Assembly: GCF_018224955.1 (NCBI RefSeq)
Contig: NZ_JAGTUU010000001.1
Location: 682,001 to 746,000 of the forward strand
Origin: Thetidibacter halocola
Lineage (GTDB): Bacteria; Pseudomonadota; Alphaproteobacteria; Rhodobacterales; Rhodobacteraceae
Direction: 5' to 3'
Length of the DNA stretch: 64,000 nucleotides
Part shown: piece by piece, positions 56,864 to 64,000 of the stretch
Layout: each line of letters opens with the position of its first letter
How positions within the stretch are numbered: the first letter of the stretch is position 1
Notes under the pieces: generated by a model
What the model saw: only the letters and a program-made list of their open reading frames with translations
Database searches by the model: none
Told to the model about the DNA's origin: nothing
Made by a program: the position numbers and the translations under genes

Positions 56864-58525
56864 ATGCTCCAGATCGATCCGTGGAAGCGCGTCGGCATCT
56901 GGCTCACCCTCGCGGTGGGCGTTGCGCTGGCGATGCCGAACCTGTTCTACAGCCGCGTCGAGCAGCACAATGATGCGGCAGCCGCGATCGAGATGGGGCT
57001 CGACACCGCCGAGAACCGCGAGGCGGTCGGTGCCTGGCCGTCCTTCCTGCCCTCGGGGCTGGTGAATCTTGGCCTCGACCTGCGCGGCGGGGCTCACCTG
57101 CTGGCCGAAGTGCAGGTGCAGGAGGTCTACGAGGCGCGGATCGAGGCGCTGTGGCCGGACGTGCGCGACGTGCTGCGGGCCGAGCGCGCCGCGGTGGGCA
57201 CCATCCGCCTGCAACCGTCCGACACCGGCGAATTGCGCGTGCGCATCTCGGAACAGGCGGGCATGCCGCAGGCGCTGGAGGCCGTGCGCCGCCTGGCGAC
57301 GCCGGTCGTGTCGCTGACCGGGGCCGGCTCTACCGATCTGGACATCAGCGCCGACGGGTCCGACATCGTCGTGACCCTGTCCGAGGCCGAACGCCAGGCC
57401 ACCGACGAACGCACGATGCAGCAGTCGCTGGAGATCATCCGCCGCCGCATCGACGAGGTCGGCACCCGCGAACCGACGATCCAGCGCCAGGGCGCCGACC
57501 GCATCCTGATCCAGGTGCCGGGCGTCGGCAGCGCGCAGGAACTCAAGGACATCATCGGCACCACCGCGCAGCTGACCTTTCAGCCGGTGGTCGGTCGCAC
57601 CACAAATGCGGGCGACGTGCCCGGCGTCGGCAACGAGTTGCTGCCCTCGCTGGACGAGGAAGGCGCGTTCTACATTCTCGAGACCGCCGCCGTCGTCACA
57701 GGCGAGGAGCTGGTCGACGCGCAGCCCTCCTTTGACCAGAACGGGCGGCCGGCGGTCAACTTCCGCTTCAACCCGGCGGGCGCGCGCAAGTTCGGCGACT
57801 ACACGGCGGCCAATATCGGCAACCCCTTCGCCATCGTGCTCGACAACGAGGTGATCTCTGCCCCCGTGATCCAGAGCCACATCCCCGGCGGATCGGGCAT
57901 CATCACCGGCAACTTCACCGTCGAGGAATCGACGCAACTCGCCGTCCTGCTGCGCGCCGGCGCCCTGCCCGCGGGCATGGAGTTCCTCGAGGAACGCACC
58001 ATCGGCCCGGAACTGGGCCAGGACAGCATCGATGCCGGCAAGATCGCAACCACTGTCGCCTTCACCGCCGTGCTGCTGTTCATGGGCGCCGCCTATGGCC
58101 TGTTCGGGCTCTTCGCCAACATCGCGCTGATCCTGAACATCGCGCTGCTGTTCGGTGCGCTGAGCCTGATCGGCGCCACGCTGACATTGCCCGGTATCGC
58201 CGGGATCGTGCTGACCGTCGGCATGGCGGTGGACGCCAACGTGCTGATCTTCGAGCGTATCCGCGAGGAACTGAAAACCGCGCGCGGCCCGGCCCGTGCC
58301 ATCGAACTTGGCTATGAAAAGGCGCTTTCGGCCATCATCGACGCCAACATCACCACCTTCATCACGGCGGTGATCCTGTACGTCATGGGATCGGGTCCGG
58401 TGCGCGGCTTCGCGATCACTCTGGGCCTTGGGATCATGACATCCGTCTTCACGGCGATCTTCGTCACGCGGCTGCTGATCGTAATCTGGTTCGAACGCCG
58501 CCGCCCCAAGACTCTGGAGGTCTGA
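56864..58525 (+). CDS. secD: Protein translocase subunit SecD
   Basis: A 553-residue RND-type subunit that uses the proton motive force to pull preproteins through SecYEG. N-terminal TM1 is followed by the large periplasmic P1 with GLDLRGGAHLLAEV. GTREPTIQRQGADRILIQVPG belongs to P1 as well. The C-terminal five helices contain VDANVLIFERIREEL, the conserved proton-path segment. Start is ATG 56864, 6 bp after yajC. Only one base separates it from secF. Confidence 0.96.
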   Translation: MLQIDPWKRVGIWLTLAVGVALAMPNLFYSRVEQHNDAAAAIEMGLDTAENREAVGAWPSFLPSGLVNLGLDLRGGAHLLAEVQVQEVYEARIEALWPDVRDVLRAERAAVGTIRLQPSDTGELRVRISEQAGMPQALEAVRRLATPVVSLTGAGSTDLDISADGSDIVVTLSEAERQATDERTMQQSLEIIRRRIDEVGTREPTIQRQGADRILIQVPGVGSAQELKDIIGTTAQLTFQPVVGRTTNAGDVPGVGNELLPSLDEEGAFYILETAAVVTGEELVDAQPSFDQNGRPAVNFRFNPAGARKFGDYTAANIGNPFAIVLDNEVISAPVIQSHIPGGSGIITGNFTVEESTQLAVLLRAGALPAGMEFLEERTIGPELGQDSIDAGKIATTVAFTAVLLFMGAAYGLFGLFANIALILNIALLFGALSLIGATLTLPGIAGIVLTVGMAVDANVLIFERIREELKTARGPARAIELGYEKALSAIIDANITTFITAVILYVMGSGPVRGFAITLGLGIMTSVFTAIFVTRLLIVIWFERRRPKTLEV

Positions 58526-58526
58526 G

Positions 58527-59495
58527 ATGCGCCTGAAGCTGGTCAAGGACGACACGAATTTCGACTTCTTCTCGCGCCCGACCCTGTGGCTGGGCATCTC
58601 GGTCTTCCTGATGGTGCTCGCCTTCGGATCGTTCATGGTCCGCGGGCTGAACTACGGCATCGACTTCCAGGGCGGCACGACCATCCGCACCGAAAGCGCG
58701 CAACCCGTCGACGTCGGCGCCTACCGCGCCGCGCTGGGCGCGCTGGATCTGGGCGACGTTGTGATCTCCGAGGTCTTCGACCCGAACTTCGGCCCCGATC
58801 AGAACGTCGCCATGGTCCGCATTCAGGCCCAGGAAGGGCAGGAGGCCGTCTCGGGCGAGGTCATAACCCAAGCCGAGGCCGCGCTGGTGGCGATCGTGCC
58901 CGACATCAAGTTCGTCTCGGTCGAGTCGGTTGGTCCCAAAGTGTCCGGAGAGCTGATCTGGACCGCCGCCATCGCCGTGTCGCTGGCGATCTTCGCGGTC
59001 CTTGTCTACATCTGGCTGCGCTTCGAATGGCAATTCGCGGCGGGCGCGGTGCTGGCGCTGGTGCATGACGTCATCCTGACCATCGGCATCTTTTCCGAGT
59101 TCGGAATCCGCTTCGACCTGTCGATCATCGCGGCGCTGCTGACCATCGTCGGCTACTCGCTGAACGACACGGTAGTGATCTTCGACCGGGTGCGCGAGAA
59201 CCTGATCAAGTACAAGTCGCGCGACCTGAAGGAGGTGCTGAACCTCTCGATCAACGAGACGCTCAGCCGGACCTTCATGACCTCGGGCACGACGCTGCTG
59301 GCGCTGATTGCGCTGCTTGTTCTGGGCGGCGACGTGATCCGCGGCTTCGTCTTCGCCATGACCTGGGGCATCATCGTCGGCACCTATTCGTCGGTCTTCG
59401 TCGCCTCGGCCTTCCTGCTGTGGCTGGGCGTCAAGCGCGACTGGACCAAGCCCACCGACACCACCGGGAACCAGTTCGGCGACGTGGATGCCTGA
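58527..59495 (+). CDS. secF: Protein translocase subunit SecF
   Basis: A 322-residue partner of SecD. It begins MRLKLVKDDTNFDFFSRP, then has NYGIDFQGGTTIRTES in the periplasmic loop and SLNDTVVIFDRVRENL in the transmembrane core. ATG 58527 comes 1 bp after the secD stop. The 3' end overlaps the TSUP gene by 8 bp, so all are probably one transcript. Confidence 0.96.
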   Translation: MRLKLVKDDTNFDFFSRPTLWLGISVFLMVLAFGSFMVRGLNYGIDFQGGTTIRTESAQPVDVGAYRAALGALDLGDVVISEVFDPNFGPDQNVAMVRIQAQEGQEAVSGEVITQAEAALVAIVPDIKFVSVESVGPKVSGELIWTAAIAVSLAIFAVLVYIWLRFEWQFAAGAVLALVHDVILTIGIFSEFGIRFDLSIIAALLTIVGYSLNDTVVIFDRVRENLIKYKSRDLKEVLNLSINETLSRTFMTSGTTLLALIALLVLGGDVIRGFVFAMTWGIIVGTYSSVFVASAFLLWLGVKRDWTKPTDTTGNQFGDVDA

Positions 59496-60709: not shown

Positions 60710-62044
60710 TCAGCGGAAGGCGTGGAGCACGCCCTTGGTCGACACGACATAGAGCACGCCGCCGGCCACCACCGGCCGGGTCGTCGCGCCGCCGGGCACC
60801 GCGACCTCGGCCGTGAGGCTGCCATCCTCGGGCGAGAAGAAGCGCAGCGCGCCATCTGAACTGGCAACCACCAGCCGTCCGCCCGCCAGGACCGGGCCCA
60901 TGTTGGCATAGGCCTCGTCACGCCGCCGGTTCGGGTTGCGGCTGGGCAGGTAGCCGGGCAGGTCCACTGCCCAGATCCGTTCACCACTGTCGGCGTCCAG
61001 CCGCACCAGCTGGTTGAGGTCAGAGACAAAGAAGACGGATCCGCCCACCGGCCAGATCGGACCCAGCGCACCGTCGCGCGCGGTCCAGATCCGCTCGCCG
61101 TCAAAGACCGACAGGGCGGCCACCCGGCCCGAATGTGTGCCGACATAGACCCGGTCTCCATCGATCAGCGGATCGCCGGTGATGTCGTTGATATTCGCCC
61201 GGGCCGACCCGTTGCGGCGGCCCAGCAGGTCGGCGTTCCACAGCCGCAGCCCACCCTCTCGGAAGGCCGCCTGCACGCTGCCCGAGCCATAGGCAAAGAT
61301 CACCGCCTTGTCGCCCACCGCCGGCGCAGGGGCACCCGCGACATTGGACACGTCCTCGACGCCGTCCACCTGCCAGCGCACCCGCCCGTCCTCGGCCTCG
61401 ACCGCCCAGCCGCTGCGATCCCCGCCGGTGACATAGACCACGCCGTTCGCCACGCTGGGGGCGCCGGTCGCGGTAGCGGAAAGACGCTGCGTCCAGAGCT
61501 CGGCCCCGTTCGAGACGTCGAGTGCCGTCAGCGTGCCAAAGCCCGACGCGACGAACACCCGCCCGCCCGCAACCGCAAAGCCGCCACCCTGTGCCTGCTC
61601 CGACCCCTCGCGCAGCGGCGTCAGGTCGTGGGACCACAACGGCGCGCCGCCGGTCGAGGTGGCACGCACCACGTTGGCGCTGTCCATGGTAAAGATGCGC
61701 CCGTCGGCGACCACCGGATCGGCGTTCAGTCGCTGGCGACGCGTGTCGCCCGCCCCGATCGATACCGACCAGGCCGGCTGCGGTGCCGGGGACAGGCGGG
61801 CATGGGTCACGCGGGCAAAGGGCGAGACAGGGCTTTGCGCCCAGTCGGCATTGGCGCTTTGCGCGGGCAACGCGATGCCCCGCGCCGCGTTCGACACCGT
61901 GACGTCATCCGCCGAGGCCCGGGTCTGAAGCACCTCGCGGATGCCCAGCCGTTCGCCCGGCAGGATGGCCTCGCGCTCGGTGCAGCCTGCGACCAGCACC
62001 GCCAATGCCACGATTCCCAGACCGGTTGCCCTGCTGCCTGCCAT
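60710..62044 (-). CDS. bamB: PQQ-like beta-propeller lipoprotein, BamB-like
   Basis: A 444-residue lipoprotein. The signal peptide ends in the lipobox LVAGC (Cys21). The mature protein has repeated PQQ/WD-like blades (e.g. NADPVVADGRIFTMDSANVV and GVVYVTGGDRSGWAVEAEDG). It fits the BamB subunit of the outer-membrane beta-barrel assembly complex. ATG 62044 is the signal-peptide start. It is 26 bp downstream of the yfgM-like gene, the usual YfgM-BamB pair, but der is not next. Confidence 0.9.
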   Translation of the reverse strand: MAGSRATGLGIVALAVLVAGCTEREAILPGERLGIREVLQTRASADDVTVSNAARGIALPAQSANADWAQSPVSPFARVTHARLSPAPQPAWSVSIGAGDTRRQRLNADPVVADGRIFTMDSANVVRATSTGGAPLWSHDLTPLREGSEQAQGGGFAVAGGRVFVASGFGTLTALDVSNGAELWTQRLSATATGAPSVANGVVYVTGGDRSGWAVEAEDGRVRWQVDGVEDVSNVAGAPAPAVGDKAVIFAYGSGSVQAAFREGGLRLWNADLLGRRNGSARANINDITGDPLIDGDRVYVGTHSGRVAALSVFDGERIWTARDGALGPIWPVGGSVFFVSDLNQLVRLDADSGERIWAVDLPGYLPSRNPNRRRDEAYANMGPVLAGGRLVVASSDGALRFFSPEDGSLTAEVAVPGGATTRPVVAGGVLYVVSTKGVLHAFR

Positions 62045-62070: not shown

Positions 62071-62727
62071 TCAGCCTTCGTCCAGCGTTCCGCCCAAGGC
62101 CACAATCACCTGTTGCGCGCGACGGCGCAAGCCCGTCGTCGCCGCCGAATCCGCCGCGATGGCGCGCAGCCGCTCGGTCGCGGCGGCGGTATCGCCGGCC
62201 TCGATGTCGAGCAGCGCAAGCTGTTCCTGCGCCAGCAGGTTCAGCGGTTCACCGGGCACGGCCAGCGCCTCGAACCCGGCACGGCGCGCGGTGGCGTCCA
62301 TCCCGGAATCGGCACGCGCCAGCGCCTTGAACTGGGCGATCTGGCGATAGATCGCCGGCACCTCGGTGTTGCCGGACACAGCGCCCAGCCGCTCGGCCGC
62401 CGCAGCGCCTTCGCCCGCGCTGCCCTGTTCCGAGGCGATCAGCAGGTTGAGGATCGCCTCACCCTCGGGCCCCGGCGCCGCGACGGCGCCCAGCGCCGCG
62501 ATACGCGCCTGCGGCTCGGCCTCGTCCAGCGCCCTCATGATCGCGTCACCAAAGGCCTGCGCCCGCGACTCGGCCTGTGCCCGGCTGTATTCCCGCCACG
62601 CGGTGCCGCCGACGATCAGCACCACCAGCAGGATGCCGATCCAGCCATAGCGCCGCATCAGCCCGAAAAGGCGGTCGCGGCGGACCTCTTCGGTCACCTC
62701 GTCGATGAAACTGTCGGTATTGCTCAC
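62071..62727 (-). CDS. YfgM-like tetratricopeptide membrane protein
   Basis: A 218-residue single-pass membrane protein. The N-terminus SNTDSFIDEVTEEVRRDRLF is cytoplasmic, followed by the helix WIGILLVVLIVGGTAW and a helical TPR-like periplasmic domain. It resembles YfgM, which links Sec-exported proteins to periplasmic chaperones. The start is GTG 62727, with GGGAGG about 8 nt upstream. It precedes bamB by 26 bp. Confidence 0.85.
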   Translation of the reverse strand: MSNTDSFIDEVTEEVRRDRLFGLMRRYGWIGILLVVLIVGGTAWREYSRAQAESRAQAFGDAIMRALDEAEPQARIAALGAVAAPGPEGEAILNLLIASEQGSAGEGAAAAERLGAVSGNTEVPAIYRQIAQFKALARADSGMDATARRAGFEALAVPGEPLNLLAQEQLALLDIEAGDTAAATERLRAIAADSAATTGLRRRAQQVIVALGGTLDEG

Positions 62728-62896
62728 CCGTGCCTCCCGTTCGGGGTCGCCCCCCGTCTTGCGGCCTCTCTTAACGCGCCCCCGCGGCGCTGCCAAGGCG
62801 CGACCGACCCGCACCAGCGCCCCTCCGCCGCCCGAAATGACGCCAAAATGCCCCGCAGAGGCCACACCGCGCGCGAAAATCGACGGGAAACGCAAC

Positions 62897-62912
62897 TGAA
62901 CCGCGCGGTTCA
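62897..62912. promoter_or_regulatory. Operator palindrome 1
   Basis: TGAACCGCGCGGTTCA is a perfect 16-bp palindrome lying just upstream of the -35 box. It shares the core TGAACCG-nn-CGGTTCA with operator 2. Confidence 0.75.
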
Positions 62913-62914
62913 TC

Positions 62915-62943
62915 TTGAAGGCCCCGGGGGCGCGCCCTAAACT
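62915..62943 (+). promoter_or_regulatory. Promoter of the RND adaptor gene
   Basis: TTGAAG (62915-62920) and TAAACT (62938-62943) are separated by exactly 17 bp. The two palindromes bracket it, the second overlapping the -10 end and the expected +1. Confidence 0.65.
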
Positions 62944-62959
62944 GAACCGCACGGTTCAG
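62942..62959. promoter_or_regulatory. Operator palindrome 2
   Basis: CTGAACCGCACGGTTCAG is an 18-bp near-perfect palindrome; only the central two bases are asymmetric. It covers the -10/+1 zone, 46 bp centre-to-centre from operator 1. The shape suits a TetR-family repressor. Confidence 0.75.
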
Positions 62960-63062: not shown

Positions 63063-64000
63063 ATGCGACTGTTCCCCATCCTGACGGCCATCATCGTTGC
63101 CGGCCTGCTTTACGCCCTGGTGATGCAGCGCGACGCCCTTCTGGAGTTCGCCCGTGGCGGCGCCCCCGTCGCGTCCGAGGCCACCCCGGCCGCGGCGCCG
63201 GCCGAAACCGCCGATGCCACGCCCGAGACCGAGACTGACGGCCTGCCCGAGGGCACCGTTCGCGTGATGGCCACGCGCTCGGTCGCGCAGGAAGTCGGCA
63301 GCGCGGTGGTCCTGCGCGGCGAGACCGAGGCGCTGCGCGAGGTCGAGGTGCGGGCCGAGACCAGCGGCAAGATCGTCTCCGAACCGCTGCGCCGGGGCGT
63401 CCTGGTCGAAGCCGGGCAATTGCTGTGCGAGATCGATCCAGGCACCCGCGCCGTGTCCTTGCAGGAGGCGCAGGCGCGCCTGGCCGAGGCGCGCGCCCGC
63501 GTGCCCGAGGCCGCCGCCCGCCTGCTCGAGGCCGAGGCCGCCGTGCCCGCCGCGCAGGCGCGCATCGCCGAGGCCGAGGCAGCCATACCCGCCGCCCAGG
63601 CGGGCCTTTTGGAGGCGCGCGCGCGCATCCCTGCGGCACAGGCCGCGCTGGGCCAGGCCGAGGCCGGCGTGCCGGAGGCCGAGGCCCGCCTCAGCGAGGC
63701 GCGCTCGCGCGTCAGGGAGGCCGAGATCAACCTGACCGCCGCCAGCGAACTGGCCCGCGACGGGTTCGCGGCGCAAACCCGGCTTGCCGGGGCCGAGGCC
63801 GGATACGAGTCGGCCAAGGCGCAGGTGCAGACCGCGCTTTCGGGCGTCAAGGGCGCCGAGGCCGATGTCGAGCAGGCCAAGAGCACCGTCGAGGGCGCCC
63901 GTGCCGCGCTGGAATCGGCGCTGAGCCAGATCGAGGGCGTCAAGGCCGCGGCGATCTCGGCGAAATCCGCCTACGAGGGCGCGCTGGCTGGCGTCGAATC
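63063..64000 (+). CDS. RND efflux periplasmic adaptor (HlyD/AcrA family), truncated by window end
   Basis: The first 312 codons are present. A signal-anchor (LTAIIVAGLLYALVM) is followed by a low-complexity Ala/Glu/Thr linker. Then comes the barrel/lipoyl start VVLRGETEALREVEVRAETSG, with GVLVEAGQLLCEIDPG near residue 115, and a long Ala/Glu-rich alpha-hairpin. Within the hairpin a 14-residue unit beginning V/I-P repeats exactly at residues 147, 161, 175, 189 and 203. The adaptor links an inner-membrane pump to an outer-membrane channel. The operators upstream suggest TetR-type induction. The pump gene should lie just outside the window. ATG 63063. Confidence 0.85.
   Translation, partial: MRLFPILTAIIVAGLLYALVMQRDALLEFARGGAPVASEATPAAAPAETADATPETETDGLPEGTVRVMATRSVAQEVGSAVVLRGETEALREVEVRAETSGKIVSEPLRRGVLVEAGQLLCEIDPGTRAVSLQEAQARLAEARARVPEAAARLLEAEAAVPAAQARIAEAEAAIPAAQAGLLEARARIPAAQAALGQAEAGVPEAEARLSEARSRVREAEINLTAASELARDGFAAQTRLAGAEAGYESAKAQVQTALSGVKGAEADVEQAKSTVEGARAALESALSQIEGVKAAAISAKSAYEGALAGVE
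63501..63710 (+). repeat. 42-bp (14-codon) tandem repeat in the adaptor hairpin
   Basis: Five units begin with V-P or I-P at codon positions 63501, 63543, 63585, 63627 and 63669, an exact 42-bp period. A sixth, degenerate unit starts at 63711 (V-R). Each unit is two heptads. Confidence 0.9.

Follow-up and report, generated by a model that had tools for sequence, protein, structure and literature searches.

The window analysed here, the whole stretch of 64,000 nucleotides from Thetidibacter halocola, ends within the gene of an RND periplasmic adaptor. The first arm of the helical hairpin of this protein carries a regular series of prolines, positioned as follows.

63063-64000, plus strand: RND periplasmic adaptor gene, N-terminal 312 codons (TIGR01730 profile, open reading frame, fold of the model of orthologue L162)
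63450-63761, plus strand: hairpin arm 1, residues 130-233 (104 in all), comprising seven double heptads plus six further residues (placed by sequence anchors; helix 125-228 in the L162 model)
63504-63506, plus strand: rung proline 1, residue 148, V-P-E; the slot, at a distance of 18 residues from the arm start, is kept in short orthologues
63546-63548, plus strand: rung proline 2, residue 162, V-P-A
63588-63590, plus strand: rung proline 3, residue 176, I-P-A
63630-63632, plus strand: rung proline 4, residue 190, I-P-A
63672-63674, plus strand: rung proline 5, the last, residue 204, V-P-E
63750-63782, plus strand: conserved hairpin tip, L-A-R-D-G-F-A-A-Q-T-R, with L four residues ahead of the tip glycine
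63762-64000, plus strand: hairpin arm 2, first part, proline-free; the full arm has 112 residues (arm 1 plus 8) and ends beyond the window

The adaptor reading frame, which starts at 63063, overruns the window end; in the same genome the full protein has 532 residues (locus L004, positions 264-1862), and the gene of an RND permease of 1245 residues (PF00873 match) lies directly 3' of it with a 4-base overlap. The window adaptor scored 157.6 bits with TIGR01730 (RND periplasmic adaptor), above the cut-off of 94.9, and remained far under the cut-offs of TIGR00998 (EmrA/EmrK; 60.3 bits, cut-off 390.8) and TIGR01843 (type I secretion HlyD; 38.5 bits, cut-off 208.65). The solved structure closest in sequence is the RND membrane fusion protein PDB 6vej (E 3.2e-21), which we take to belong to the TriABC pump; its best-scoring match covers residues 328-520, C-terminal to the hairpin, and the hairpin repeats are outside this comparison. 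An AlphaFold model was obtained for orthologue L162 (528 aa, mean pLDDT 89, pTM 0.50), which has the arm length of the window gene. The model predicts an N-terminal anchor, a lipoyl domain split around a helical hairpin, and a beta-barrel. Compared with the PDB by Foldseek, it matched AcrA best (E 4.0e-27) and MexA as well (entries 9a2v, 6iok and 2f1m). The window adaptor resembles AcrA/MexA-type adaptors in TIGR01730 membership, domain order, best fold matches and pairing with an RND permease gene.

Two minus-strand frames (60710-62044 and 62071-62952) diverge from the adaptor gene; judged by eye, they presumably encode a BamB-like beta-propeller lipoprotein and a membrane-anchored repeat protein, respectively, and the frames at 56864-59495 are presumably SecD/SecF-like. 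Upstream of the adaptor gene, two 16-base palindromes TGAACC-N4-GGTTCA (62897-62912 and 62943-62958, 46 bases apart) form a putative operator-like element; a loosened form of this pattern occurs ahead of the adaptor gene in 17 of 121 loci.

Each of the five prolines in the window is preceded by V or I, and they follow one another at exact steps of 14 residues (42 bases). Five prolines can be distributed over a 104-residue arm in 91,962,520 ways, of which only 48 show such steps, and Tandem Repeats Finder reported a 42-base period at L004:669-808, that is window 63468-63607. A preliminary description had placed a proline in every unit of a 14-residue repeat at 63501-63752. The exact repeat was confirmed, and the prolines were found in five of the six units: at residue 218, the proline slot of the next unit, there is an arginine (V-R-E).

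Orthologues were collected in two sets. In the family search, 128 of 198 genomes had a match at E 1e-30 or better, own genome counted, and loci were taken from 120 of the 127 other matching genomes (G147, G113, G195, G105, G192, G141 and G087 were left out). The adaptor frame was present in all 121 loci, own included, and a permease lay on the same strand in 118 of them, the remaining three being without a permease match. The second set, which overlaps the first, consists of the best 80 of 586 named loci from genome contigs. The hairpin was delimited by a conserved cysteine-GTR anchor and an APF motif, with the conserved tip glycine dividing arm 1 from arm 2; the tip pattern accepted only G or N as the tip residue, with a preference for L or I at position -4. 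Both sets were pooled and identical proteins dropped, which gave 177 distinct script-measured adaptors. One locus (L056) is cut by a contig end, lacks the C-terminal part and was left unmeasured. Proteins with mismatched arms would not have escaped the searches, which draw on the N- and C-terminal domains as well. In one locus (L082, G009:C3:658700-665530) the adaptor frame stops at 319 residues with an unrelated tail, possibly through a frameshift or an assembly error; both arms could nevertheless be measured, at 55 and 63 residues. In the wider class, 59 of 240 genomes had a match at E 1e-40, and most frames listed had 363-464 residues; outside the family the six longest listed had 506-591 residues (G266, G253, G278, G252, G315 and G355).

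Arm 2 exceeded arm 1 by exactly 8 residues in all 177 distinct adaptors. Counted by set, the rule held in 115 of 115 script-measured family loci and in five more under a looser tip pattern (120 of 121 loci), and in 78 of 78 script-measured loci of the second set, the remaining two (L195 and L229) fitting by hand. Arm 1 spanned 27 to 286 residues and always left a remainder of 6 when divided by 7, so that the arms differ by whole heptads. The lengths observed were 27 (8 proteins), 34, 41, 48 (68 proteins), 55 (34 proteins), 62, 69, 90, 97, 104, 118, 132, 146, 160, 174, 202, 216, 230 and 286 residues (3 proteins). The hairpins of relatives thus range from about one quarter to nearly three times the length of that of the window gene, the longest arms (286 + 294 residues) being found in Antarctobacter heliothermus DSM 11445 (L195), among others. 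Among arms of at least 90 residues, 34 of 35 fell on a stricter series, 6 modulo 14. The preliminary description had envisaged a ruler-like variation in length produced by changes of 42-bp units, to be sought in the unit number of orthologues; the unit number does vary, and it does so in step in both arms, which goes beyond what had been proposed. The one long arm off the series (L204, from the Rhodobacterales MAG DOLJORAL78_64_13) belongs to a hairpin of 97 + 105 residues and contains a single arm-1 proline.

Prolines were almost confined to the first arm: 502 in 12,871 residues of arm 1 versus 1 in 14,287 residues of arm 2 (177 adaptors). The 14-residue period recurs in relatives: among the long-arm orthologues (35 distinct), a single phase modulo 14 accounts for 294 of 298 arm-1 prolines, and proline occupies 294 of the 309 in-phase slots between first and last rung. 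The exact count of one proline per added rung held in 24 of 34 long arms. Orthologues lacking the period, which had been named as evidence against the idea, do exist, as 142 of the 177 arms are shorter than 90 residues and too short to display it; yet the proline slot itself is kept, with a proline 18 residues into the arm in 69 of 69 sampled 48-residue arms (51 + 18, duplicates not removed). In our own heptad assignment, the arm-1 unit reads A-E-A-R-L-A-E-A-x-A-R-V-P-(A/E/T), with L and V at a, A at d and proline at b; arm 2 has V, I or L at a and A at d, and its S, G, N and Q occupy mostly outer positions.

The hairpin tip is the other conserved element. L at -4 and G at the tip were found in 177 of 177 distinct adaptors, partly by construction of the measuring pattern, and position +3 is S in 151 and A in 24 (S or A in 175 of 177), the window adaptor having A. 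The docking motif at adaptor tips is R-x3-L-x6-S; the position of its R is A in 166 of the 177 distinct adaptors. According to the title of one report, a TolC-binding motif is shared among adaptors (PMC3391258).

Two kinds of correspondence between the arms were observed. First, when e positions of arm 1 were paired with e' positions of arm 2 at a distance equal to the arm-1 distance plus 5, facing charges were opposite in 255 cases and like in 25 (32 long proteins). Shuffling units within proteins gave means of 189 opposite and 100 like, and none of 500 shuffles was as good; the helices of the L162 model, with ends at 228 and 234, are consistent with the offset of 5. Second, covariation links the residue following the proline to two positions of arm 2 at about its height, to an extent that none of 1000 shuffles reached (near-identical proteins were dropped in the wider covariation scan). 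Of 157 pairs (24 proteins), 39 were A-G, 38 were E-N and 34 were T-S. Because the covarying sites are outer heptad positions, the pairs are read as contacts between neighbouring hairpins. Covariation of this kind could also come from blocks amplified together, with no contact involved. In three genomes of one genus (G152, G439 and G440), a lone P-A rung within a P-T block faces Q, and the neighbouring rungs face G; this arrangement favours contact over co-amplification.

We consider it probable that the hairpin of this RND adaptor is built and resized in arm-matched double heptads of 14 residues, with a proline usual in arm 1. A rung would consist of one arm-1 double heptad, usually with a proline at position b, paired with the proline-free double heptad that lies level with it in arm 2, and in the long-arm lineages length would alter by whole rungs. 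If so, two distant 42-base changes in one gene must both be kept. This reading builds on the observed matching of arms, the quantisation in heptads and double heptads, the phase of the prolines, the e-e' charge complementarity and the purifying selection in both arms (see below). By analogy with known adaptors, selection for in-register pairing, together with packing of six hairpins in a tube, may purge unmatched forms, and neighbouring hairpins would meet on the proline face. Against it stand the protein whose arms are off the 14-residue series, the long arms in which the proline count is not exact, and the lack of a significant excess of same-height insertions in the two arms (see below).

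The prolines might instead act by negative design: in a repetitive helix of Ala, Glu and Arg they would block pairing of arm 1 with arm 1, or pairing one heptad out of register. Such a role would account for the restriction of proline to one arm and for a period in long arms of 14 rather than 7 residues. The e-e' charge pattern, however, already favours the correct register, and we regard this role as rather unlikely.

The preliminary description had also suggested that the hairpin may be kinked at set intervals, and prolines acting as kinks or hinges would bend it every 20 Å. All in-phase prolines do lie on one face. However, the confident L162 model predicts a single helix from 125 to 228 that runs unbroken through prolines 144, 158, 172, 186 and 200, with pLDDT 92-97 in this block. 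The model of the 286-residue arm (L195, 905 aa) was weak (mean pLDDT 77, pTM 0.35, with a low-confidence fold-back) and was set aside as evidence on shape; it has five helix breaks in arm 1, each 1-3 residues ahead of a proline, and 13 of its 18 prolines are without a break. Regular kinks are thus disfavoured by the better model and keep only a small share of probability, owing to the breaks in the weaker one. In a hairpin of paired rungs, prolines within a continuous helix may tune its curvature rather than break it. Exchangeable apolipoproteins, with 22-residue amphipathic lipid-binding helical repeats, offer a parallel by description only, as their regular prolines let a long helix curve; they differ from the rungs in being lipid-binding 22-mers and not a coiled-coil hairpin.

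In EmrA, a helix of 84 residues spans 127 Å (PMC4158417, in the portion available). At the corresponding value of about 1.5 Å per residue, arm 1 would measure about 40 to 430 Å across the family, and about 155 Å for 104 residues. Hairpin length could be matched, species by species, to periplasm width, with the hairpin acting as a rigid strut that runs radially from pump to TolC. This idea has some basis in known adaptors, which bridge the pump and the outer-membrane channel, and in EmrA, whose long hairpin has been explained by the absence of the membrane-proximal domain (PMC4158417 and PMC13328181, available portions). Neither the permease nor the other envelope proteins compared scaled visibly with the arms. 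Permeases had 1253 +/- 31 aa with long arms (17 proteins) versus 1248 +/- 38 with short ones (93), among 110 complete permeases; their rank correlation with arm length was positive but weak (rho 0.26, p 0.006, without correction for relatedness). This falls well short of scaling, and co-lengthening was discarded, but the correlation softens the evidence against the strut. Type I HlyD and TolC showed no visible change in size between long- and short-arm hosts in tables of 38 genomes read by eye. HlyD was above its cut-off in 36 of these genomes and TolC in 35; one genome (G136) was without HlyD at E 1e-40, and one host of 286-residue arms (G020) gave no TolC match at E 1e-20. TolA gave no match above the cut-off in the 38 genomes and is weak evidence here. 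Moreover, 430 Å (286 residues) far exceeds the spans of 170-225 Å quoted for modelled pumps in the portions of the literature available. Because HlyD, TolC and the permease do not visibly scale, a rigid strut fitted to the periplasm is unlikely for the long forms. The ruler across the envelope was rejected as a candidate, we give it very little credence, and periplasm width is probably not what hairpin length measures.

Length has changed often in this family. A quick tree was built from the N- and C-terminal domains of 151 proteins, with 67 of its 148 inner branches drawn open; it requires 64 changes of arm length and 11 switches between long and short forms. Five genomes of one genus have 14, 13, 11, 8 and 8 rungs, with arms matched in all, and in a second genus there are 16 rungs in G126 and 13 in G199. 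Units with the closest DNA similarity tend to occupy comparable heights in the two arms (within-protein r 0.37, the best of 1000 shuffles giving 0.24; the rows for L195 are approximate). Judged by eye, sister species made a convincing case for new rungs entering the two arms at one height, but unit-level alignment left this unproven: in 99 pairs differing by one rung the excess was not significant (p 0.27), nor was it in the 29 closer (p 0.09) or the 12 closest pairs (p 0.90). Within genera, one of seven pairs was clearly non-random (G126-G199, p 0.004), the other six giving p 0.06 to 0.88. Over six species pairs, of which one approaches silent-site saturation, both arms had dN/dS values of 0.02-0.10, and the C-terminal domain had 0.03-0.10; purifying selection acts on both arms.

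Frequent change of this kind is what would be expected if the extra length of the tube were irrelevant to the pump, slippage resizing the repeats and selection acting only against unmatched arms. Such neutral drift under a pairing constraint shares the paired rungs with the reading that we favour but assigns no function to length. It agrees with the 64 changes on the tree and the range of 8 to 14 rungs in one genus, with the lack of a matching change in permease, TolC and type I HlyD, and with the homogenisation of repeats in places. On the other hand, long arms are as conserved as the C-terminal domain, and arms of 48 or 55 residues make up 102 of the 177 distinct adaptors, so that length is not free in most lineages. 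We hold drift to be the less likely account, although a serious one.

The long forms could constitute a conduit of tunable length, a tube of up to about 430 Å that extends beyond what the pump and TolC need. One-face prolines would give it constant curvature; e-e' charges within the hairpin and post-proline A/E/T against G/N/S between hairpins would fix the register; and length would evolve freely in 14-residue rungs with assembly remaining exact. We offer this proposal as speculative and think it improbable in its full form.

Compared with characterized systems, the present adaptors differ in scale and in their prolines. The hairpins of AcrA and MexA measure 58 Å and 47 Å, respectively (PMC4158417, available portion), as against a window arm 1 of 104 residues and arms of up to 286 residues in relatives; a regular proline restricted to arm 1 is a trait of this family, unlike AcrA and MexA. 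EmrA, an adaptor of MFS pumps, is similar in having a long antiparallel two-stranded hairpin of 127 Å with 11 heptads per helix, a length that Hinchliffe et al. (2014; PMC4158417) termed exceptionally long in the portion available. It serves another class of pump, and its heptads are interrupted by insertions of 4 and 3 residues, of which there are none in the 177 adaptors studied here. Gain and loss of heptads in both helices of adaptor coiled coils was described by Symmons et al. (2015; PMC4446572, available portion); the present case differs in that a single orthologous gene is followed over a tenfold range, that its long forms carry a proline unit of 14 residues and that the code between the arms has been measured. 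The exchange of helical domains in the available portion of Xiao et al. (2010; PMC2850547) is of a different kind. The accessible portions of a 2026 adaptor review (PMC13328181) and of a 2021 review (PMC8277102) contained no passage on proline in hairpins, and a search of titles and abstracts, with few subscription journals, returned no paper on proline-rung adaptors or on such an extreme range of length. Heptad-wise change in hairpin length is therefore known already, and the proline rung and the extreme range, not found in the literature searched, are apparently new.

In conclusion, these adaptors provide a natural series of one protein, beside the same permease, in which the length of the hairpin was changed often and the arms are matched in all those measured. 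The series makes it testable how two distant repeats in one gene keep step, and how tightly the length of an efflux adaptor is tied to the envelope that it spans. The rungs also form a natural set of parts from which antiparallel coiled coils of a desired length might be assembled, and they show where a proline is tolerated.
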